A DNA stretch of 64,000 bases from Myxococcota bacterium (GTDB lineage Bacteria > Myxococcota_A > UBA9160 > UBA6930). Location of the stretch: NCBI GenBank assembly GCA_028285625.1, contig JANQOX010000014.1, positions 62,001 through 126,000 on the forward strand, given 5' to 3'. Made by a program: the position numbers and the translations under genes. The notes under the pieces were generated by a model, which saw only the letters and a list, made by a program, of their open reading frames with translations, did no database searches and was not told the origin of the DNA. Shown here piece by piece: positions 36,506-46,593 of the stretch. The stretch's first letter is position 1, and the number at the start of each line of letters is the position of its first letter.

Positions 36506-39500
36506 TCAGTGGAAGTCGTGGGAGCCGGGGAGGGTGCTGCCGAGGTCGAGGGGGCGTAGGTCGCGGACACGGACGTGGACCACGCCGTCCACGTTCTGCA
36601 CGGGGCCGGCGATCTCGAGCATGGCGGCGGTGTGCAGCGGGGCGCGAAAGCGCTCGAACTCGTCGGGCATCATCACGCCGTTGGTGGTGCCGGTCTCGTC
36701 CTCGAGGGTGAGAAAGCAGACGCCGCTGGCCGAACCCGGGCGCTGGCGCACGATCACGTGCCCGGCGGTGCGGACGAAGCGGCCGTTGGGCACGTCGCGC
36801 ACCTCGCGGGTGGCGAGTACGCCCCGCTTGCGCAGCCCTTCGCGCAGGTGCGCCATCACGTGCGGGCCGGTCGTGATGCCGGTGGTGCGGTAGTCGGCCA
36901 GCGTGTCTTCGAGCGGCGAGAGCTCGGAAAGAGGGGAGGGCGCATCGGCGCCGGTGGGCTCGGCCCCGGCAAAGAGCGAGCGCGGATCGCGCTCGACGGC
37001 GGCCACCTGCCAGAGCGCCGCGCGTCGCCCGCCGGCGCGTGCGTCGATGCCGTGCAACGCCCCCGACTCGGCCAGGGCCTCGATCTCGTGGCGCTTCGGG
37101 GCGGCGCGTCGCGCCAGGTCGGCCGTGCCCGCGAAGGGGCGTCTGCGCCGTTCGACGGCAAGACGCTGCCCGGTGTCGGCCGAGAGCTGCCGCACGTAGC
37201 GAAGCCCGAGCCGCACGCAGGGGGGGCCGGGTGCGTCGCTCTCGAGGGTGCAGCGCCAATCGCTGTGCGCCACGTCGATGGGCCGCACGGCCACGCCGTG
37301 GCGCTGGGCGTCCTTCACCAGGGTGGCGGGGTTGTAGAAGCCCATGGGCCAGGCGTTGAGCATGCCGGTCAGGAACGCCGCGGGGTGGTGCGCGCGCAGG
37401 TAGGCCGACGCATACGCGATCAGCGCGAACGAGGCCGAGTGCGATTCGGGGAACCCGTAGAGCGCGAACGAGGTGATGCCGCGCACCACCTCTTCCTGCG
37501 CCTCGCCGGTGATGCCGCGGGCGGTCATGCCCGCGCGCAGGCGCTCCTCGATGCGCTCCATCTTCTCGACCGAGCGCTTGAAGCCCATGGCCCGGCGCAG
37601 CTCTTCGGCCTCGCCACCGGTGAAGCCCGACGCCTCCATGGCCAGCCGCAACAGCTGCTCCTGGAAGATCGGCACGCCGAGCGTGCGCTTCAGGATGGGC
37701 TCGAGCGAGGGATGCGGGTAGATCACCGGCTCGCGTCCTGCGCGGCGGTTGAGATAGGGGTGCACCATCTGTCCCACGATGGGGCCCGGGCGGATGATCG
37801 CGATCTCCACCACCAGGTCGTAGAAGCAGGCGGGCTTCATGCGCGGCAGCGTCACCATCTGCGCGCGGCTCTCGATCTGGAACACACCGACCGTGTCGGC
37901 GCGCTGGATCATCGCGTAGGTCTTGGGGTCGTCCGGCGGCAGGTGGGCGAGGTCGATGGCCACCCCCTCGTGCGCCTCGATCAGCGGGATCGTCTCTTCC
38001 AAGGCCTGGAGCATGCCGAGGCCGAGCAGGTCGATCTTGATGAGCCCCAGGTCTGCGCAGTCGTCCTTGTCCCACTGGATGACGCGGCGCCCCTCCATGG
38101 CGGCGGGCTCGATGGGCACGGCCTCGTCGAGCCGCCCCGCGGCGATCACGAGCCCGCCGGTGTGCTGCCCCAGGTGTCGCGGGAGCCCGCGCACCTGCTC
38201 GACCAGGTCGAGCAGCAGGGCGATGCGCGGAGACTCGGGGTCGACCTTGGCCTGGCGCAGCATGGCGGGCAGGTCGTCCATGCCCTCGCGAAAGCGCAGG
38301 CCGCCCAGCAGCTTGGCCAGCCGGTCGAGTGCACGCTCGGCCATGCCGAGGACCTTGCCCATCTCGCGTACGGCCGAGCGCGTGCGGTAGCTGATCACCG
38401 TGGCGGTCATGCCCACGCCGTGGGGCCCATAGCGGTCGTAGACGTACTGGATGACCTCTTCGCGCGGGTCGCCCGAGGGCAGGTCGAGGTCGATGTCGGG
38501 CCACTCGCCGCGCTCTTCGGAGAGAAAGCGCTCGAACAGCAGCTCCATGCCCACGGGATCGACCGCGGTGATCGCGAGCGCGTAGCAGACGGCGCTGTTG
38601 GCAGCGGAACCGCGGCCCTGCACCAGGATGCCCTCGTCTCGCGCGTGGCGGGCGATGTCGTGGACGATCAGGAAGTAACCGGCCAGGTCGAGCTTGGCGA
38701 TCACCGCAAGCTCGTGCTCGAGCTGCGCACGCGCGCGCCGCGGCAGGGGGTCGCCGTAGCGGCTGCGCGCGCCCTCGAAGGTGAGGCGCCGAAGCCAGCT
38801 GTCCTGGTCGTGGCCGCCGGGTACGGGAAAGGCGGGGAAGCGGTACTCGAGGTCGGCCAGGCTGAAGGCACAGCGCTCGGCGATCTCGCGGGTGGCGCGC
38901 ACCCACGCGGGCTGATCGGCAAAGCGCGCGGCCATTTCTTCGGGGCGGTGCAGCACGCGCTCGCCGTTGGCGAGCAGCACGCGGCCCGCGCGGTCGAGCG
39001 TGGTCTTGGCGCGCAGGCAGGCAAAGGCGTCGAGCAAACGCCTGCCCTGGGGCCGCGCCACGCGCACGTCGCCGGTGGCCACCACCGGAACCCCCTGGGC
39101 CTGGGCCAGGTCGATGGCACCGCGGCAGGCCGCCTCGAGCCCGCGGTCGCGCGCACGGGCCACGGCCAGCCAGGTGCGCCCGCCGAAGCAGGCTCGAGCG
39201 CGGTCGAGAAACGCCGGCGTGAGCGTGGCCTGGGCGGGCACCAGGGCCACCAGATCACCGGCGGCGTCCTCCACTTCGTCCCACGACACGCGCGCCTCGC
39301 CCTTGGGTGCGTTGCCCTGGGCCGTGGTGAGCAGGCGCGCCAGGTTGCGCCAGCCCCGCGGCGACTCGGCCAGCAATTGCAGCGGCAGGCCCTCCACGTC
39401 CGACAGCTCGGCCCCGTGGATCTCGCGCACACCGCTCGCCTGGCAGGCCCCATGAAAGCGCGGCGAGCCGTAGAGCCCATCGCGATCCGACAGCGCCAGG

Positions 39501-39622
39501 GCCTGATGGCCCAGCTCTCCGGCTCGCTCCGCCAGATCTTCGGGGTTCGAGGCGCCCTCGAGAAACGAGAAGGCGCTGCGGGCGCGCAGCTCGACGTAGT
39601 CGCTCGGGGGGGCCGGGCACAT
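36506..39622 (-). CDS. dnaE2: Error-prone DNA polymerase III alpha subunit
   Basis: A 1038-aa C-family polymerase of DnaE2 length. The PHP domain starts at YVELRARSAFSFLEGASNP. The catalytic palm has VQGRGSAANSAVCYAL near residue 340 and the aspartate triad region PDIDLDLPSGDPREEVIQYV. Middle motifs include HTGGLVIAA and LLGLGMLQAL; the C-terminus has an OB-fold region (HVIVRQRPGSASGVCFLTLED). DnaE2 performs translesion synthesis with ImuA and ImuB. The ATG at 39622 is chosen because the frame upstream to 39658 is promoter sequence. That promoter carries a CGAAAA direct repeat also found at imuA, so damage-induced co-regulation is likely. Confidence 0.93.
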   Translation of the reverse strand: MCPAPPSDYVELRARSAFSFLEGASNPEDLAERAGELGHQALALSDRDGLYGSPRFHGACQASGVREIHGAELSDVEGLPLQLLAESPRGWRNLARLLTTAQGNAPKGEARVSWDEVEDAAGDLVALVPAQATLTPAFLDRARACFGGRTWLAVARARDRGLEAACRGAIDLAQAQGVPVVATGDVRVARPQGRRLLDAFACLRAKTTLDRAGRVLLANGERVLHRPEEMAARFADQPAWVRATREIAERCAFSLADLEYRFPAFPVPGGHDQDSWLRRLTFEGARSRYGDPLPRRARAQLEHELAVIAKLDLAGYFLIVHDIARHARDEGILVQGRGSAANSAVCYALAITAVDPVGMELLFERFLSEERGEWPDIDLDLPSGDPREEVIQYVYDRYGPHGVGMTATVISYRTRSAVREMGKVLGMAERALDRLAKLLGGLRFREGMDDLPAMLRQAKVDPESPRIALLLDLVEQVRGLPRHLGQHTGGLVIAAGRLDEAVPIEPAAMEGRRVIQWDKDDCADLGLIKIDLLGLGMLQALEETIPLIEAHEGVAIDLAHLPPDDPKTYAMIQRADTVGVFQIESRAQMVTLPRMKPACFYDLVVEIAIIRPGPIVGQMVHPYLNRRAGREPVIYPHPSLEPILKRTLGVPIFQEQLLRLAMEASGFTGGEAEELRRAMGFKRSVEKMERIEERLRAGMTARGITGEAQEEVVRGITSFALYGFPESHSASFALIAYASAYLRAHHPAAFLTGMLNAWPMGFYNPATLVKDAQRHGVAVRPIDVAHSDWRCTLESDAPGPPCVRLGLRYVRQLSADTGQRLAVERRRRPFAGTADLARRAAPKRHEIEALAESGALHGIDARAGGRRAALWQVAAVERDPRSLFAGAEPTGADAPSPLSELSPLEDTLADYRTTGITTGPHVMAHLREGLRKRGVLATREVRDVPNGRFVRTAGHVIVRQRPGSASGVCFLTLEDETGTTNGVMMPDEFERFRAPLHTAAMLEIAGPVQNVDGVVHVRVRDLRPLDLGSTLPGSHDFH

Positions 39623-39627
39623 CAGTC

Positions 39628-39658
39628 TATTTTCGTCTTGTTTTCGCCTTCGCGTCAA
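39628..39658 (-). promoter_or_regulatory. Candidate damage-response promoter of dnaE2
   Basis: Reading the minus strand: TTGACG (39658-39653), then CGAAAA at 39646-39641 and again at 39635-39630, 11 nt apart, then AAAATA (39633-39628) five bases before the ATG. The same arrangement precedes imuA. No ribosome-binding site is present, so the mRNA would be leaderless or nearly so. Confidence 0.65.
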
Positions 39659-39719
39659 GCGGGATCTACGGGGCAGCCTGTCTCTGGCAGCCGTGCGCCG
39701 GTCCGCTCATCCTCCCCAC

Positions 39720-40097
39720 GTGCCCGAGCGCCCCTTGACCGTGCTGGTCGCCGACGATGAGCCCGCGCTGCTGCGTCTGGTGACCCGGCTGCTCGAGCCC
39801 GAGGGGTTCCGTGTGTTGCCGGCCGCCGATGGGACCGAGGCGGCGGCCCTGCTGGCCACGGCCGATCCCTGCGTCGAACTCGTCCTGCTCGACGCCGGGC
39901 TCCGGCCCCAGGGCGCCGACCCGATCCTGAAAACCATTGCCGAAGAGGGGCTGCGGGTCGGCGCGGTGCTGATGAGCGGCAGCCGCCTGTCCGACGCGGC
40001 GCGCGGCTTGCTCGACGTCTGCGGTGGCCGCTACATCGCCAAGCCGTTCGCGCCCGACGACCTGGTCGAGGCGCTGCGCGCGGTCGCCCCGGCGTGA
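39720..40097 (+). CDS. Stand-alone response-regulator receiver domain protein
   Basis: A 125-aa single receiver domain. LTVLVADDEPALLRL carries the acidic pocket, VLLDAGLRP the phosphoacceptor aspartate near residue 60, LMSGSR the switch Ser, and YIAKPFAPDDL the conserved Lys-Pro. There is no output domain, so it is a CheY/Spo0F-like relay. The GTG at 39720 (preceded by CATCCT six bases upstream) removes a poorly conserved extension from the GTG at 39693. The next gene overlaps its stop as GTGA. It is divergent from dnaE2. Confidence 0.8.
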   Translation: MPERPLTVLVADDEPALLRLVTRLLEPEGFRVLPAADGTEAAALLATADPCVELVLLDAGLRPQGADPILKTIAEEGLRVGAVLMSGSRLSDAARGLLDVCGGRYIAKPFAPDDLVEALRAVAPA

Positions 40098-41047
40098 AGT
40101 CCGACCGTCGGTCCCTCGCGACGGGGGTCGGCCGCACCGCGATCGCCTGGCTCACCTATCCGTCGGCGTTGATCGGGTCGGTCTGGCTCGGAGGTGGGCT
40201 GCTCGACGGCGGCCTCTCGCCCGCCGGCACCGTGGCTTGCGTCGGCGCTGCCTTCCTCGTGCTGTGCTTCGCGCTCGAGCGTGTCTCGCCCGAGACGCCC
40301 CGCTGGGACTGGTCGCGGCTCGAGCTGCGCACCGACGCGCTTCATGCGCTGCTCACCAACACGATTCCCTCGGCGCTTTTTCGGCTGCTCTTCTACAGCG
40401 GGTTGGTCGGTCTCGCGGACGCGTTCGACCAGCGACTCGGTTCCTCGCTCTGGCCCGACGGGGCGCCGCGGCTCGTGCAGCTCGCGCTCGCGCTGCTGCT
40501 GGCCGAGGCCGCCGCCTACGCGATCCACCGCGGGCTCCATCGCTCGCGCCTGTGGCCGCTGCATGCGGTGCATCACAGCTCGCGGCGCTTCTACTTCCTG
40601 CTGGCGGCGCGCAAGCACCCGATTCAGGCGTTCGTCACCTATGGGGGCCGGCTCTCGGTGCTCTGGGTCGTGGGTGTTCCGGCCGACGTGATCGCGCTCT
40701 ACACCTGCCTCGCTGCAGCGGCCAGCTACGTGCAGCACGCCAACCTGCACCTGCGTACCGGTGTGCTCGGCTGGGTGTTCGCCACGCCCGAGTTGCACCG
40801 ATTGCATCACGGCCGCGAGCCGAGCGCCGCCAACTGCAATTTCGGCGACGTCCTCATCGTCTACGACGTGCTCTTCGGCACGCGCCGGACGCCGCCCCCC
40901 GCCGAAGCGCTGCACGATGGCCTGGGCCTTCCCGACGAGATCGCCGTGGATCACCACTACCGCGGGCACCTGGCGCTGCCCTTCGTGTGGCCCGCTTCGG
41001 CTCCGGCCGCCGACACTGCCGGCGGTGCGTCCTCCGACTCGAGCTAG
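40094..41047 (+). CDS. Sterol desaturase/fatty acid hydroxylase superfamily protein
   Basis: A 317-aa membrane protein with four or more spans and the di-iron histidine clusters of the family: AIHRGLHRS near residue 148, LHAVHHSSRRF near 162, and ELHRLHHGREP near 240. It would hydroxylate or desaturate a lipid using oxygen. The GTG start overlaps the receiver-domain gene by 4 nt, an unusual pairing that could place the enzyme under signalling control. The stop shares CTAG 41044-41047 with the convergent peptidase gene. The substrate is unknown (sterol, hopanoid, carotenoid or fatty alcohol are possible). Confidence 0.83.
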   Translation: MKSDRRSLATGVGRTAIAWLTYPSALIGSVWLGGGLLDGGLSPAGTVACVGAAFLVLCFALERVSPETPRWDWSRLELRTDALHALLTNTIPSALFRLLFYSGLVGLADAFDQRLGSSLWPDGAPRLVQLALALLLAEAAAYAIHRGLHRSRLWPLHAVHHSSRRFYFLLAARKHPIQAFVTYGGRLSVLWVVGVPADVIALYTCLAAAASYVQHANLHLRTGVLGWVFATPELHRLHHGREPSAANCNFGDVLIVYDVLFGTRRTPPPAEALHDGLGLPDEIAVDHHYRGHLALPFVWPASAPAADTAGGASSDSS

Positions 41048-42852
41048 ACCTCGGCCAGCCGCTCGGCCTCGTCGACCATGCCTTCGAGGATGCGCAGGCC
41101 GCCCTTCCAGAAGGCCGGGTCGGTGATGTCGAGCCCCACCTTCGAGACCAGGGCCGGCGGGCTGTCGGATCCGCCGGCGGACAGCAGCTCGAGGTAGCGC
41201 GGCACGAAGGCATCGCCCTCTTCGTCGTAGCGCGCCACCAGCGCCAGTACGAGCAGCTCGCCGAAGGCATAGGCGTAGCAGTAGAAGGGCGAGTGCACGA
41301 AGTGCGGGATGTAGAGCCACCACCACGCGTAGTTCTCGGTCAGCGTGACGGCATCGCCCAGCATGGGCTGGTTGGCCTCGAGCCACAGCTCGTTCACGCG
41401 CTCGATCGCCAATTCGCCCTCGGCGCGCCGCGCCTGGTGGAAGGCCTGTTCGAAGCGGGTCATCGACACCTGGCGGAACACCGTGGCGAAGCTGTCTTCG
41501 AGCTTGCCGCAGAGCAGCCGCAGGCGCGTCTGGGGGTCGGTCTCCTCCCGCATCAGCCGTCGGAAGACCAGCATCTCGCCGAACACGCTGGCCGTCTCGG
41601 CGGTGGTGAGCGGCGTGTCCTGCTCGAAGAGACCCCGTTCGCGGGCCAGGTACTGGTGCACCCCGTGCCCCAGCTCGTGGGCCACCGTCATCACGTCCCG
41701 CAGGTTGCCGGTGTAGTTGAGCAGCACGTACGGGTGCACGCTCGGCACGGTACTCGCCGAGAAGGCGCCGCCGCGCTTGCCCTCACGCAGCTCGGCGTCG
41801 ATCCAGCGCTCGTCGAAGAAGCGCCGGGCGATGTCGGCCATCTGAGGCGCGAAGTCGCCGTAGGCCCCGAGCACCAGGTCGCGCGCGTAGTCCCAGTCGC
41901 GCGTCTCCTGGACGTCGAGCAGCGGCGCATAGCGGTCGTAGTCATAGAGGGGCTCGAGGCCCAGCAGCTTGCCCTTCAAGCGGTAGTAGCGGTGGACCAG
42001 CGGAAAGGCCTCTTCCGAAGCCGTCATCAGCGCCCGGACCGATGCGCCGTCGATCTCGTTGGCCAGGTTGCGCTCGTCCATGGCGTCGTCGTAGCGGCGC
42101 AGGCGGTCCTCGACGGCCTTGCTCTGCACGAGCGTGTTGAAGATGAACGACAGCACCCGGCTGTTCTTCTTGAGCCCGTCGGTCAGGCCCTCGGACGCGG
42201 CCTTGCGGCGGTCGCGGTCGGGCTCGTAGAGCATCGCCAGGACTTCTTCTTCGGACAGCTCCGCGCGTTCGCCGTCGACCTGCACGTCGAAGCGCGCAGC
42301 CCCCATCACCTCGTCGAACAGCCGCGCAAAGGCGCGAGGGCCGGTGTTGGCGGCCTCTTCGAGGATGCGCTCTTCGGGCTCGGTGAGGACGTGCGGCCGG
42401 TAGCGGCGGAGCGACTCGAGCAGGTGCCGGCGGCCGGCGAGGGCCTCGTCGGCGAGCAGGCGGTCGCAGCGCGCGGGGTCGACGGCGACCCACTCGAGCT
42501 CGAAGAACACGAGCGCGTTGCGCACCTGGCTGCCGCGCTCTTGCACGCGCTGAAGCAGCGCGCCATGGGCGGGCGCCTGGGTGTCGTCGGCGAATAGCAG
42601 GCCTGCAAAGACGTTCGCCCGCGCGAGCGGCTCCTGGAGGGCCTCGTACTCGTCGAGCGCCTCCACCAGCTCCGTGGCGTTCAGCACGGCGACGCGGTCC
42701 CGGTAGGTCTCCTGAAACGCGTCGGCGCGGCGCACGGCTTCGTCGAGGGCGGCATCGAGGGCCGGGTCGTCCGGGCCCGCGAACAGGTCGCCCAGGTTCC
42801 AGCGCACGCCCGCAGCCGGACCGGCGCCTCGGCCGTTGGTGGAGTCGTTCAC
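41044..42852 (-). CDS. pepF: Oligoendopeptidase F (M3 family metallopeptidase)
   Basis: A 602-aa cytoplasmic metallopeptidase. The zinc motif is VAHELGHGVHQYLA near residue 390, with the third ligand Glu in TAETASVFGEMLV. The N-terminal GVRWNLGDLFAGPDDPAL and C-terminal YAYAFGELLVLALVARY are typical of PepF. It cleaves short peptides. The first in-frame start is GTG at 42852. This overlaps, as GTGA, the stop of a nine-codon reading frame beginning at 42878, which has its own TANNNT-type promoter. Translation of pepF may therefore depend on reinitiation. Confidence 0.88.
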   Translation of the reverse strand: MNDSTNGRGAGPAAGVRWNLGDLFAGPDDPALDAALDEAVRRADAFQETYRDRVAVLNATELVEALDEYEALQEPLARANVFAGLLFADDTQAPAHGALLQRVQERGSQVRNALVFFELEWVAVDPARCDRLLADEALAGRRHLLESLRRYRPHVLTEPEERILEEAANTGPRAFARLFDEVMGAARFDVQVDGERAELSEEEVLAMLYEPDRDRRKAASEGLTDGLKKNSRVLSFIFNTLVQSKAVEDRLRRYDDAMDERNLANEIDGASVRALMTASEEAFPLVHRYYRLKGKLLGLEPLYDYDRYAPLLDVQETRDWDYARDLVLGAYGDFAPQMADIARRFFDERWIDAELREGKRGGAFSASTVPSVHPYVLLNYTGNLRDVMTVAHELGHGVHQYLARERGLFEQDTPLTTAETASVFGEMLVFRRLMREETDPQTRLRLLCGKLEDSFATVFRQVSMTRFEQAFHQARRAEGELAIERVNELWLEANQPMLGDAVTLTENYAWWWLYIPHFVHSPFYCYAYAFGELLVLALVARYDEEGDAFVPRYLELLSAGGSDSPPALVSKVGLDITDPAFWKGGLRILEGMVDEAERLAEV

Positions 42853-42878
42853 GATGTCGTTCGCTTGGGGTGGCTCAT
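42849..42878 (-). CDS. Possible nine-residue leader peptide upstream of pepF (MSHPKRTTS)
   Basis: An ATG at 42878 stands 8 nt after TACGCT, matching the leaderless-start pattern of other genes here. The frame runs nine codons and ends in a TGA that overlaps the pepF GTG by the GTGA arrangement. It may be a translated leader that delivers ribosomes to pepF. The evidence is positional only. Confidence 0.35.
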   Translation of the reverse strand: MSHPKRTTS

Positions 42879-42886
42879 GCGCGCCG

Positions 42887-42892
42887 AGCGTA
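42887..42892 (-). promoter_or_regulatory. -10 hexamer TACGCT upstream of the pepF leader frame
   Basis: TACGCT on the minus strand lies 8 nt before the ATG at 42878, not before the pepF start. It is divergent from the dinB promoter element at 42925-42930. Confidence 0.4.
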
Positions 42893-42924
42893 ACGGCTCG
42901 CGCCGGGCCGTGCCGCGGGGCTGG

Positions 42925-42930
42925 TACCTT
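42925..42930 (+). promoter_or_regulatory. -10 hexamer TACCTT of a probable leaderless promoter (dinB)
   Basis: TACCTT is followed by exactly 6 nt and the GTG at 42937. The CGAAAA direct repeat of dnaE2 and imuA is absent here. Confidence 0.45.
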
Positions 42931-42936
42931 GGGGCC

Positions 42937-44232
42937 GTGTCCCGCCCCCGCACCATCCTGCACGCGGACATGGACGCATTCTACGCGTCCATCGAGCAGC
43001 GCGATCGCCCCGAGCTGCGCGGCCGGCCCGTGATCGTCGGCGGCACCGGAAGCCGCGGGGTGGTGTCGGCCGCGAGCTACGAGGCGCGCCGCTTCGGCGT
43101 CCACTCGGCCATGCCCGGCGCCCAGGCCCAGCAGCTCTGCCCCGACGGCGTCTTCCTTCGCGGCGACATGAAGAAGTACGCCGCCGAGTCGAAGCGCATC
43201 TTCGAGGTGTTCCGACGCTTCACCCCCGCGGTGGAGGGGCTGTCCCTGGACGAGGCGTTTCTCGACATGACGGGCACCGAGCGCCTGCTCGGGCCGGTGG
43301 CGGTCGTGGGCGAGCGGCTGCGCGCCGAGGTGCGCGAAGAGACAGGCCTCGCGATCTCGGTGGGGATCGCGCCGATCAAGATGGTGGCCAAGATCGCCAG
43401 CGACGTCGCCAAGCCCGATGGCCTGCTGCAGGTGCCCGAGGGCCAGGTGAACGCGTTTCTCGACCCGCTGCCCATCGAGCGCATCTGGGGGGTGGGGCCG
43501 GTCACCGCCGAGCGGCTGCGCGGCCAGGGCTTCGACACCATCGGAAGCCTGGCGGCCGCCGATCCCGAGCGCCTGAAACGCATGCTCGGCGACTTCGGCC
43601 CGCGCTTCGCGCGCCTGGCCCGGGGCGACGACCTGCGCGACGTCGAGCCCTACCGCGCGCCCGTCTCGATGAGCGAGGAGAACACCTTCGGCAGCGACGT
43701 GGCCGACCGCCGCGTGCTGGAGGGCGCGATCTGGACCCACGCCGAGGCCGTGGCCAGGCGCCTGCGCAAGAGCGGCTTCGAGGCGGGCACGGTCGTGCTC
43801 AAGCTCAAGCTTGCGCGTCGGCGGCGACCCGGTCCGCGCGGCTATCCACTGATCACGCGGCGCACGACGCTCGCCGAACCCACCGACGACGGGGAGGTGC
43901 TGGCCCGCGAGGCGTGCGACCTGCTCGCCCGTGCCGAACTGGGCGAACCGGTGCGGCTGGTGGGGGTGGGTACCACGGGCATCCGCGAGTCGGGCACACG
44001 GCAGCTCCAGCTGTTCGGGCCCGCGGCGGAGAAGCAGCGCCGCAAGCGGCTGAATGCCGCACTCGACAAGCTCTCGGACCGCTTCGGCCAGGGCGTGGTC
44101 AAGCGCGCGGGCCAGTCCGAGGTGCAGCGCGCGGCGTTGTCGTTCCAGATCAAGCACGGCGAGGACGACACGCCCAGCGAGGACGAGCGCCGCGGGTCTC
44201 CCCAGGCGATCCCCAGGAGCGATCAGTCGTAG
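42937..44232 (+). CDS. dinB: DNA polymerase IV (Y family)
   Basis: A 431-aa translesion polymerase. Catalytic acidic residues are in LHADMDAFYASIEQRD at the N-terminus and VEGLSLDEAFLDMTG near residue 100. The helix-hairpin-helix region is RIWGVGPVTAERLRGQGF near 185. A beta-clamp-binding motif, RQLQLFGP, is near 355, followed by a basic tail. The GTG at 42937 starts the protein three residues before the conserved core, and the TACCTT hexamer six bases upstream supports it. The gene converges with imuB and overlaps its 3' end by 10 nt. It is not in the imuA-imuB operon. Confidence 0.94.
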   Translation: MSRPRTILHADMDAFYASIEQRDRPELRGRPVIVGGTGSRGVVSAASYEARRFGVHSAMPGAQAQQLCPDGVFLRGDMKKYAAESKRIFEVFRRFTPAVEGLSLDEAFLDMTGTERLLGPVAVVGERLRAEVREETGLAISVGIAPIKMVAKIASDVAKPDGLLQVPEGQVNAFLDPLPIERIWGVGPVTAERLRGQGFDTIGSLAAADPERLKRMLGDFGPRFARLARGDDLRDVEPYRAPVSMSEENTFGSDVADRRVLEGAIWTHAEAVARRLRKSGFEAGTVVLKLKLARRRRPGPRGYPLITRRTTLAEPTDDGEVLAREACDLLARAELGEPVRLVGVGTTGIRESGTRQLQLFGPAAEKQRRKRLNAALDKLSDRFGQGVVKRAGQSEVQRAALSFQIKHGEDDTPSEDERRGSPQAIPRSDQS

Positions 44233-45845
44233 AAGGCGTCGATCTGCCAGCTGCGGGTGGTCCAGTCGAAGCGCAGCCGCACCACCAGGCCGTCGCTGGT
44301 CTGCACGTCGAAGTGGTCGAACGCATAGCGTTCGGTCTCCGACCACCAGTGCCCCGTGGTGCGCCAGGGGCCCGCACAGTGGACCACGTCGCCATTGGCC
44401 AGGGCGCTGCGAACGTACACCGGGGTACCGCCGGCCGATCGCACCTGGGCGCCCAGCGGTGGACGCAGGGCGCGCACGGCCAGGGCCGTGGGCTCGGGCG
44501 AGGGCGCCGCGTCTTCGAGGGTGAGCTGGTGGCCGGTGTGCCGCACGCCCCGGTCGTCGGCCCTGCGTGCGCCAGCGCGGAAGGTCTCGAGGGCATGACC
44601 GTCGGGGCGATGGGTGTCGGCGACGGCAGGTGCGCCCACCCGGCCGCTGCCGCACAGGGCCGTGAGTTCGGCCACGGTGCGCGAGAGCACGGCCGGCGTG
44701 GGGCCCGCCGGGCGAAAGAAGTCGAGCTGATCGCCGCGTACGGCGGCGCCCTCGGTGGCCACGCGCACGTACAGCACGCAGTCGGGCGGGGGCCGTGATT
44801 CGAGCGACAGGGCGATCAGCCTCAGGATCACGGCGACGTCGAGGGTGGGGGCGGCGATGCCCACGCGCCGCGCGTCGCGGCCGCCGCCGTCGAGGCCGAG
44901 CCGCAGTTCGAGGTCGGCGAAGGCGAGTCCGCGGCAATCGAGCCGTTCGGCCAGCCGCGAGAGCATGCCGCGCAGGGCGAACAGCAGGGGTTCGACCCGA
45001 TCCACGCCGATCTCGAGATCCATGCGTTCGACGAAGTCGCTGCGTACGGGGACGGCGGGTGGGGCCTCGCGCACGGTACCGCGCGCGAGGGCGAGCAGCG
45101 GCGCCACCGAGGCGCCGAGCCGCGTTCCGAGGGCGTCGGCCGGGATGCGCAGCAGGTCGTCCACCGTGCGCAGGCCGAAGCGGGTGAGCGCCTGGGCGAG
45201 GGCGTCGTCGGGGCCGAGCAGGTCGAGGGGCAGCGGCGCCAGGAAACTCGCGTCGTCGCCGGGGGCAATCACGCACGTGGTCTCGGCCCCGTCGCGGAGC
45301 CGGCGTGCGGCGATGCGTGCCACGCCGGCCGAGCCGGCCACGGCCACCACGGCGGGCAGCCCCACGCGTGCGGCGCGTTCGGCCAACGCACCGGCAAAAC
45401 CGGTCTCGCTACCGAACAAGGGCCCCACGCCTCCGGCATCGACCACCAGCGCGGCCTCCTGGGCCCAGGGGCCGGTGCCAGGCGGGGACGGCTCTGCCCG
45501 GGGAGAGACCCCGAGTGCGGCGTCGAGCAGGGCTTCGCGCGCGGCGCGCACCAGGGCGGGGCGGCTCGGGCGCACACACAGATCGGCGCAGGCGGCGCGC
45601 CCGTGTACCGCGGTGGCGCCCGGCAGCACGCCATGGCGAGCGGCCTCGGGCGAGACCGACAGGATCTCGGCACGCGGTCCCTCGCCGTCGACCACCGCCA
45701 CTGGACGTTCCTGGAGTTCGGGATGCACCCGCATCTCCGCAGCCAGGGGCAGGTCGGGCACGAGCAGGCAGGCGCGTCGCGCGGCCGTTTCGGGCCTCGC
45801 GTGCGGTCCGGAGTGGGCGTCACCGCGTCGGGTAGGGGGGGCCAC
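44223..45845 (-). CDS. imuB: Inactive Y-family polymerase-like mutasome protein ImuB
   Basis: A 540-aa DinB-like protein. The N-terminal strand that should carry catalytic DxD reads LLVPDLPLAAEMRV, and the SLDEA motif is replaced by LVVDAGGVG, so the active-site acids are missing, as is normal for ImuB. An HhH region (FGLRTVDDLLRIPADALGTRLG) is present near residue 235. The C-terminal region ending WQIDAFYD is typical. ImuB is the hub linking DnaE2, ImuA and the beta clamp. The GTG at 45845 lies 15 nt after the imuA stop, so the two form an operon. Confidence 0.9.
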   Translation of the reverse strand: MAPPTRRGDAHSGPHARPETAARRACLLVPDLPLAAEMRVHPELQERPVAVVDGEGPRAEILSVSPEAARHGVLPGATAVHGRAACADLCVRPSRPALVRAAREALLDAALGVSPRAEPSPPGTGPWAQEAALVVDAGGVGPLFGSETGFAGALAERAARVGLPAVVAVAGSAGVARIAARRLRDGAETTCVIAPGDDASFLAPLPLDLLGPDDALAQALTRFGLRTVDDLLRIPADALGTRLGASVAPLLALARGTVREAPPAVPVRSDFVERMDLEIGVDRVEPLLFALRGMLSRLAERLDCRGLAFADLELRLGLDGGGRDARRVGIAAPTLDVAVILRLIALSLESRPPPDCVLYVRVATEGAAVRGDQLDFFRPAGPTPAVLSRTVAELTALCGSGRVGAPAVADTHRPDGHALETFRAGARRADDRGVRHTGHQLTLEDAAPSPEPTALAVRALRPPLGAQVRSAGGTPVYVRSALANGDVVHCAGPWRTTGHWWSETERYAFDHFDVQTSDGLVVRLRFDWTTRSWQIDAFYD

Positions 45846-45860
45846 CCGCGCGCGCCCGGC

Positions 45861-46556
45861 TCAGGCGGCCACGCGCAATCGCACGGCCACCACCTGTTGG
45901 GTGGGTCCCGTGCGATTGCGCACCAGGCGGGCACGGACTTCGAGCTCTTCGAGCCAGTCGGGGCGCTGCGAGAAGCGCGCACGGGCAGGCTCCATCTCCA
46001 CGGCCAGGTCGGCCGTGGGCCCCGCGATGCGCTGCGTGGCCAACAGCAGCAGCACGGCATCGGTGCCTGCGGCGATCCGACGCAGGCGGGTGAGGGACGC
46101 GGCGGCCACACCCGATACCTCGGCGCCGGCGAGGTCGATTCCGACCAGGGCGAACCCCCCGGCCACCAGGATGCGCTCGGCGCTGCGCAGCGCGGCGGCC
46201 GCATCGGGTGGGCGCGCCCAGAGCACGCGTTCGAGCGCCGTACCGGCCGTGCTGGCCGAGGCCGGGTCGAACGCATCGGGTACGTCGATCCAGGCGGCCA
46301 GGTGGCCCTCCTGGGTGGTTCGTGCGAGCAGGGCGTGGGCCAGCGAGGTGCGGCCAGAACTCGCGGGGCCGGCCACCTCGCACAGGCGCCCGCGCGGCAG
46401 CCCCCCGCCGAGCATCTGGTCGAGTTCGGCGAGTCCCGTAGGCCGGGGGGGCGCAGGGGGGCACGGGCGCTCGCCCCGGTGGACGTCCGCGCCGAGATCT
46501 CGGAGCAGGTGGACCAGTCGGGACTCGCGCCCCGGGTTCCGGGGGGGTGAGAGCAC
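45861..46556 (-). CDS. imuA: ImuA, RecA/SulA-like mutasome protein
   Basis: A 231-aa RecA-fold protein. The P-loop-like segment reads AGPASSGRTSLAHALLA near residue 64, with Arg in place of the usual Lys, and AWIDVPDAFDP and FALVGIDLAG follow. This is normal for ImuA, which need not hydrolyse ATP. The N-terminus has TGLAELDQMLGGGLPRGRL, shared with RecA. It is required with ImuB for DnaE2 mutagenesis in characterised systems. The GTG at 46556 stands 7 nt after the promoter -10 region, with no ribosome-binding site, so the transcript is probably leaderless. imuB follows after 15 nt. Confidence 0.87.
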   Translation of the reverse strand: MLSPPRNPGRESRLVHLLRDLGADVHRGERPCPPAPPRPTGLAELDQMLGGGLPRGRLCEVAGPASSGRTSLAHALLARTTQEGHLAAWIDVPDAFDPASASTAGTALERVLWARPPDAAAALRSAERILVAGGFALVGIDLAGAEVSGVAAASLTRLRRIAAGTDAVLLLLATQRIAGPTADLAVEMEPARARFSQRPDWLEELEVRARLVRNRTGPTQQVVAVRLRVAA

Positions 46557-46563
46557 GAACGCC

Positions 46564-46593
46564 TACTTTCGTCTCGTTTTCGCCTCGGGTCAA
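46564..46593 (-). promoter_or_regulatory. Candidate damage-response promoter of imuA-imuB
   Basis: On the minus strand: TTGACC (46593-46588), then CGAAAA (46582-46577) and CGAAAG (46571-46566) 11 nt apart, then AAAGTA (46569-46564) seven bases before the GTG. It aligns closely with the dnaE2 promoter over about 30 bases. Confidence 0.65.

Follow-up and report, generated by a model that had tools for sequence, protein, structure and literature searches.

Genes and promoters of the locus

The stretch of DNA analysed here (the window) is 64 kb long and carries dnaE2, the pair imuA-imuB, and dinB (Table 1). The minus-strand promoter of dnaE2 reads TTGACG-CGAAGG-CGAAAACAAGACGAAA-ATAGACTG-ATG, with AAAATA following the box, and that of imuA reads TTGACC-CGAGG-CGAAAACGAGACGAAA-GTAGGCGTTC-GTG, with AAAGTA in the same place. 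The element common to both is a direct repeat, CGAAA-N6-CGAAA, with a period of 11 nt. The original prediction of two aligned minus-strand promoters sharing a CGAAAA or CGAAAG repeat with this period agrees with the sequence at both sites, as does its statement that dinB lacks the motif: upstream of dinB the matrix scores no higher than -11.6 bits.

Table 1. Genes and promoter features of the 64-kb window
Feature	Position	Strand	Evidence
dnaE2, error-prone DNA polymerase	36506..39622	-	NCBIfam NF004225, 1240 bits
Putative -10 of dnaE2, GAAAAT, overlapping the second half-site	39629..39634	-	final T kept in 25/27 relatives; putative function
LexA-type box of dnaE2, CGAAAACAAGACGAAA	39631..39646	-	pattern match; 36.0 bits; same element in 27/30 relatives
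Putative -35 of dnaE2, TTGACG	39653..39658	-	sequence; TTGAC here is the consensus in relatives
dinB (DNA polymerase IV), box-less control; start approximate	42865..44232	+	PF00817, PF11799
imuB (Y-family polymerase homologue); start approximate	44223..45845	-	PF00817
imuA (RecA-like), GTG start	45861..46556	-	PF00154; NF033429 ImuA, E 4.6e-15, under curated cut-off
Putative -10 of imuA, GAAAGT, overlapping the second half-site	46565..46570	-	T kept in 27/29 relatives; putative function
LexA-type box of imuA-imuB, CGAAAACGAGACGAAA	46567..46582	-	pattern match; 27.4 bits; same element in 29/30 relatives
Putative -35 of imuA, TTGACC	46588..46593	-	sequence; consensus in relatives

With at most one mismatch allowed, CGAAAAC-N4-CGAAA matches the window exactly twice, at dnaE2 and imuA, against 0.15 matches expected, and none of 100 dinucleotide shuffles of the 64 kb reached two. 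A 20-position scoring matrix, trained on relatives with the window's own two sites included, exceeds 9 bits nowhere else in the window.

A gene for a stand-alone response-regulator receiver protein (39693-40097, plus strand) lies head-to-head with dnaE2, on the other side of the boxed promoter region. A homologue stands divergent to dnaE2 likewise in 22 of 30 relatives, the window's own locus counted in, and because this position is kept, the receiver protein may share the dnaE2 operator.

Further boxes in the same genome

The original prediction had also pointed to other repair genes of the genome, and a scan did find the exact box at lexA and beside a gene of the PA0069 family of radical SAM proteins. 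In the 5.67-Mb genome, where site lists derive from pattern searches, CGAAA-N6-CGAAA occurs exactly eight times, against two for a reversed-pattern control; three of the eight are the sites at dnaE2, imuA and lexA, and a fourth abuts the radical SAM gene, a few bases before its start. The promoter of lexA, the only copy in the genome, carries the box in reverse orientation, the coding strand reading TTGACTTTCGCCTCGATTTCG.

Three further strong boxes were found in this genome. The first (L035 1501-2733, G000:C10:575968; 26.6 bits) precedes a tyrosine recombinase gene with an adjoining tRNA-Gly, possibly the LexA-controlled integrase of an integrative element. The second (L243 ~1501-1670, G000:C6:75475; 32.2 bits) accompanies TTGACT-17-CATAGT near a tRNA-Lys and has no clear downstream gene; an inverted repeat, GGTGCCCG...CGGGCACC, is present, an Rfam search of the locus matched only the tRNA, and the transcript may be an SOS-controlled small RNA. 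The third (L256 3-1448, G000:C21:174708) is embedded in a good promoter (TTGACT-17-TAACAT); the protein encoded downstream, 482 aa or longer, has no match in Pfam or NCBIfam. Weak sites, including L003, L005 and L248, are located in coding regions and were set aside.

Conservation of the box in relatives

In the upstream regions of relatives, we counted as a match any direct pair of CGAAA at period 11 with at least 9 of the 10 bases. By this measure the box precedes imuA in 29 of 30 relatives, dnaE2 in 27 of 30, the radical SAM gene in 28 of 30 and lexA in 73 of 81 loci, where shuffles lead one to expect 0.3-2.1 per set overall and 0.3-0.6 for the imuA, dnaE2 and radical SAM sets. In the imuA and dnaE2 sets, exact direct pairs of CGAAA concentrate at period 11 and scarcely occur at other periods, and inverted CGAAA pairs are not enriched. 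The consensus is TTGAC...aGGCGAA.AaAArRCGAAAaT for imuA and dnaE2, gAcTTTCGcttTAcTTTCGCC followed by the start codon for the radical SAM gene, and TTGACTTTCGCct...TTTCG for lexA. A second, opposite box (8/10 or better) is present in 37 of 63 boxed lexA promoters, mostly 27-33 nt downstream. That the window itself holds just two sites might be put down to chance similarity, or to a recent duplication of one promoter in this genome, yet for each gene the element is conserved in about 30 genomes whose flanking sequences have diverged, where 0.3-2 would be expected, and lexA and the radical SAM gene have independent sites of their own; this leaves the explanation a negligible probability, and we reject it.

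Three observations on the wider set of loci may be added here. The gene groES stands head-to-head with lexA in 59 of 80 lexA loci (L031; L072-L151), giving lexA and the chaperone gene a common control region. A distant operon of the imuA-imuB-dnaE2 type in genome G050 (L053), whose DnaE2 is 37% identical, has the same box at 33.9 bits; it looks as though the same control had been extended to a different operon. In a single genome (G046, L061 1499-1620), a 24.9-bit box lies some 106 bp upstream of mraZ, the gene that usually opens the division and cell-wall cluster.

The gene recA is a classical LexA target, and its control by the same operator is common, although not universal. The original prediction had staked its case on the recA and lexA promoters, and the outcome is divided: the box is present at lexA, in this genome and its relatives alike, and it is present in none of the 30 recA upstream regions of relatives, with no site of 14 bits or more by matrix in the whole recA loci. 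The sole weak upstream site (9/10, position 3417 of L068), considered as a means of control for the recA operon, lies inside a coding frame, is absent in relatives and was rejected. A recA gene that lacks the box is not fatal to the LexA reading, and we do not treat recA as defining.

Promoter architecture

The box overlaps the core promoter of imuA and of dnaE2, and in both its position with respect to TTGAC and the start codon is fixed. Such constant spacing would suit a motif that is part of an alternative sigma factor promoter and not a repressor site. Against this, the box is reversed at lexA and at the radical SAM genes and its register varies, lying right after TTGAC at the former and over the putative -10 at the latter; moreover, sigma-70-like -35 sequences, separate from the box, are visible next to it. 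We reject the alternative-sigma explanation, which we judge highly improbable, on the grounds of reversibility and differing registers: an element that can be turned around and shifted relative to the -35 and -10 is therefore an operator and not a promoter element.

Counted from the start of the box, the commonest distance to the first in-frame start codon is 24 nt in dnaE2 (10/26) and imuA (13/28); for the radical SAM gene it is 20 nt (14/28). Since the putative -10 elements place the start of transcription at or next to the commonest start codon, the mRNAs of imuA, dnaE2 and the radical SAM gene are probably leaderless.

LexA and its lineage

The single LexA of the genome (TIGR00498, 183.6 bits) is of the self-cleavable type, keeping the A-G cleavage site and catalytic Ser130 and Lys168, all of them invariant. 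The neighbours of this LexA that bear names belong to MAGs with the label Deltaproteobacteria, Myxococcales or Myxococcota, among them UBA6930, UBA4427, UBA9160 and TMED88, and the lineage is most likely an uncultured order of Myxococcota. LexA of the order has a recognition helix of the SSVATVHKHV type, as against the RSTNGVNDHL type found in nearly every other family of the phylum that was sampled. In a LexA tree, indicative only because its sample was drawn by peptide pattern, the order is separated from the rest of the phylum (support 100/95) and joins Acidobacteriota-like sequences, a subset of which likewise have the box at their lexA genes.

The box follows this division. In a phylum-wide sample, 9 of 12 lexA promoters of order members have it at 9/10 or better; outside the order, a 9/10 match at lexA occurs in one near-identical genome pair alone, where it is weak and lies about 157 nt upstream. 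Within the order, a clear box is missing from a few lexA promoters, for instance L106, L109 and L123. None of 17 dnaE2 loci outside the order has the box, and a few of these promoters carry TGAAC/GTTCA-like palindromes instead; GAAC-N2-7-GTTC was not found in the sampled lexA promoters of the order.

Two genomes of the same family, G004 and G007 (2.8 and 2.2 Mb, each about 91% complete), have neither lexA nor imuA nor dnaE2, so that the SOS mutagenesis module appears to have been lost in its entirety, and their radical SAM loci are the sole 2 of 30 without the box. In the 7 of 30 genomes tested for this association, the 5 with lexA all have a boxed radical SAM gene and the 2 without lexA do not (exact p = 1/21).

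A proposed SOS operator

What the sequences directly establish is the motif itself, where it lies, how well it is conserved and that it goes with one type of LexA; LexA binding, repression, damage induction and leaderless transcripts are what we infer. LexA is the best candidate for the binding protein because lexA itself carries the box. The same reading is supported by the box being common to imuA, dnaE2 and the radical SAM gene, which are typical LexA targets (PMC8565304, PMC7739468), and because the box tracks the LexA helix type and goes missing in genomes that have no lexA. The feature is real, and its reading as a LexA site is strongly supported by these sequence comparisons; we are confident that the motif is the SOS operator (LexA box) of the lineage, wiring together imuA-imuB, dnaE2, lexA and the radical SAM gene. 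The predicted sharing of an operator among damage-tolerance genes is borne out, at the level of sequence, by the sites at these genes.

A second damage regulator other than LexA, for example an XRE regulator like DdiA of Myxococcus xanthus, might bind the box and control lexA too. In M. xanthus, dnaE2 is under DdiA-dependent control, being activated by DdiA and not via LexA alone (PMC12288472), and a recA gene that lacks the box would fit such a regulator. We consider it unlikely, however, as the distribution of the box in the phylum matches that of the LexA recognition-helix type, and as the box sits in the promoter of lexA itself, is gone where lexA is gone and has a half-site similar to the CGAAC of Bacillus LexA (PMC9578287).

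With LexA as the preferred binder, a dimer would bind TTTCG-N6-TTTCG (CGAAA-N6-CGAAA on the other strand), with one half-site on each turn of the helix. In the imuA and dnaE2 promoters the box takes up the spacer between the -35 and the -10 and forms part of the latter, such that bound LexA would block RNA polymerase. Upon damage, activated RecA would trigger self-cleavage of LexA and thereby release imuA-imuB, dnaE2, lexA and the PA0069-family radical SAM gene.

More broadly, and with somewhat better than even confidence, we propose that the order has a LexA subfamily (SVATVHKH) set apart from the rest of the phylum and closer to that of Acidobacteriota. Its operator would be the CGAAA/TTTCG direct repeat instead of palindromes, and would, leaving recA aside, connect imuAB, dnaE2, lexA and the radical SAM gene through compact promoters that fuse operator, -10 and leaderless start codon.

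Comparison with known LexA boxes

The LexA motifs reported so far differ widely among phyla, and direct repeats are among them, in Alphaproteobacteria (PMC8565304, PMC9578287) and in Balneolaeota (PMC7739468); recognition of direct repeats by LexA seems to have arisen several times (PMC7739468). The original prediction, which knew of no LexA box like this one and proposed an undescribed damage-response operator, needs to be narrowed accordingly. Direct-repeat LexA boxes with a period of 11 nt were already known, and the element, present at the lexA promoter, is best read as a LexA box; what appears to be new is the CGAAA/TTTCG half-site in this lineage. A direct-repeat LexA box of this exact spelling was not found described in a partial literature search, which is not proof of novelty, and the same search returned nothing relevant on a LexA motif of Acidobacteria or on a LexA repeat built from TTTCG. 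What emerges is a well-defined and testable SOS operator in an uncultured lineage for which none was found described, and prediction of the regulon in the genomes of the order becomes possible. Set beside the known systems, the box compares as follows:

(i) In Balneolaeota, LexA recognizes the direct repeat TTACACATATTTTWTACATA, and translesion polymerases belong to the regulon, as they do here. That motif was found via the same comparative route and then confirmed by gel shift (PMC7739468). The half-site is unrelated, and recA lies inside the regulon there and outside it here (PMC7739468). Radical SAM proteins, for their part, are members of the SOS core regulon in Gram-positive bacteria (PMC7739468).

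(ii) In Alphaproteobacteria (Caulobacter), the box GTTC-N7-GTTC is likewise a direct repeat of period 11 and controls lexA and imuA-imuB-dnaE2 (PMC8565304, PMC9578287). The half-site there is GTTC (GAAC), whereas the consensus here is TTTCG (CGAAA).

(iii) LexA of Bacillus subtilis has a recognition helix, T-V-H-x-H, similar to that of the order. Its box, CGAAC-N4-GTTCG, has a half-site (CGAAC) very similar to the CGAAA found here (PMC9578287). The arrangement differs, being an inverted repeat with a 4-nt gap in B. subtilis and a direct repeat with a 6-nt gap in the order.

(iv) LexA of M. xanthus has the recognition helix of the phylum's other families (S-T-N-G-V-N-D-H). The likeness lies in a LexA-linked damage response in which dnaE2 is affected by LexA, and in the Myxococcota label of the LexA relatives described here; the M. 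xanthus box, CTRHAMRYBYGTTCAGS, is an imperfect palindrome, in contrast to the direct repeat of the order (PMC9705874). A palindrome and a direct repeat within one phylum, each paired with a different recognition helix and with outgroups at hand, make a good system in which to follow a global repressor and its binding sites as they change in concert.
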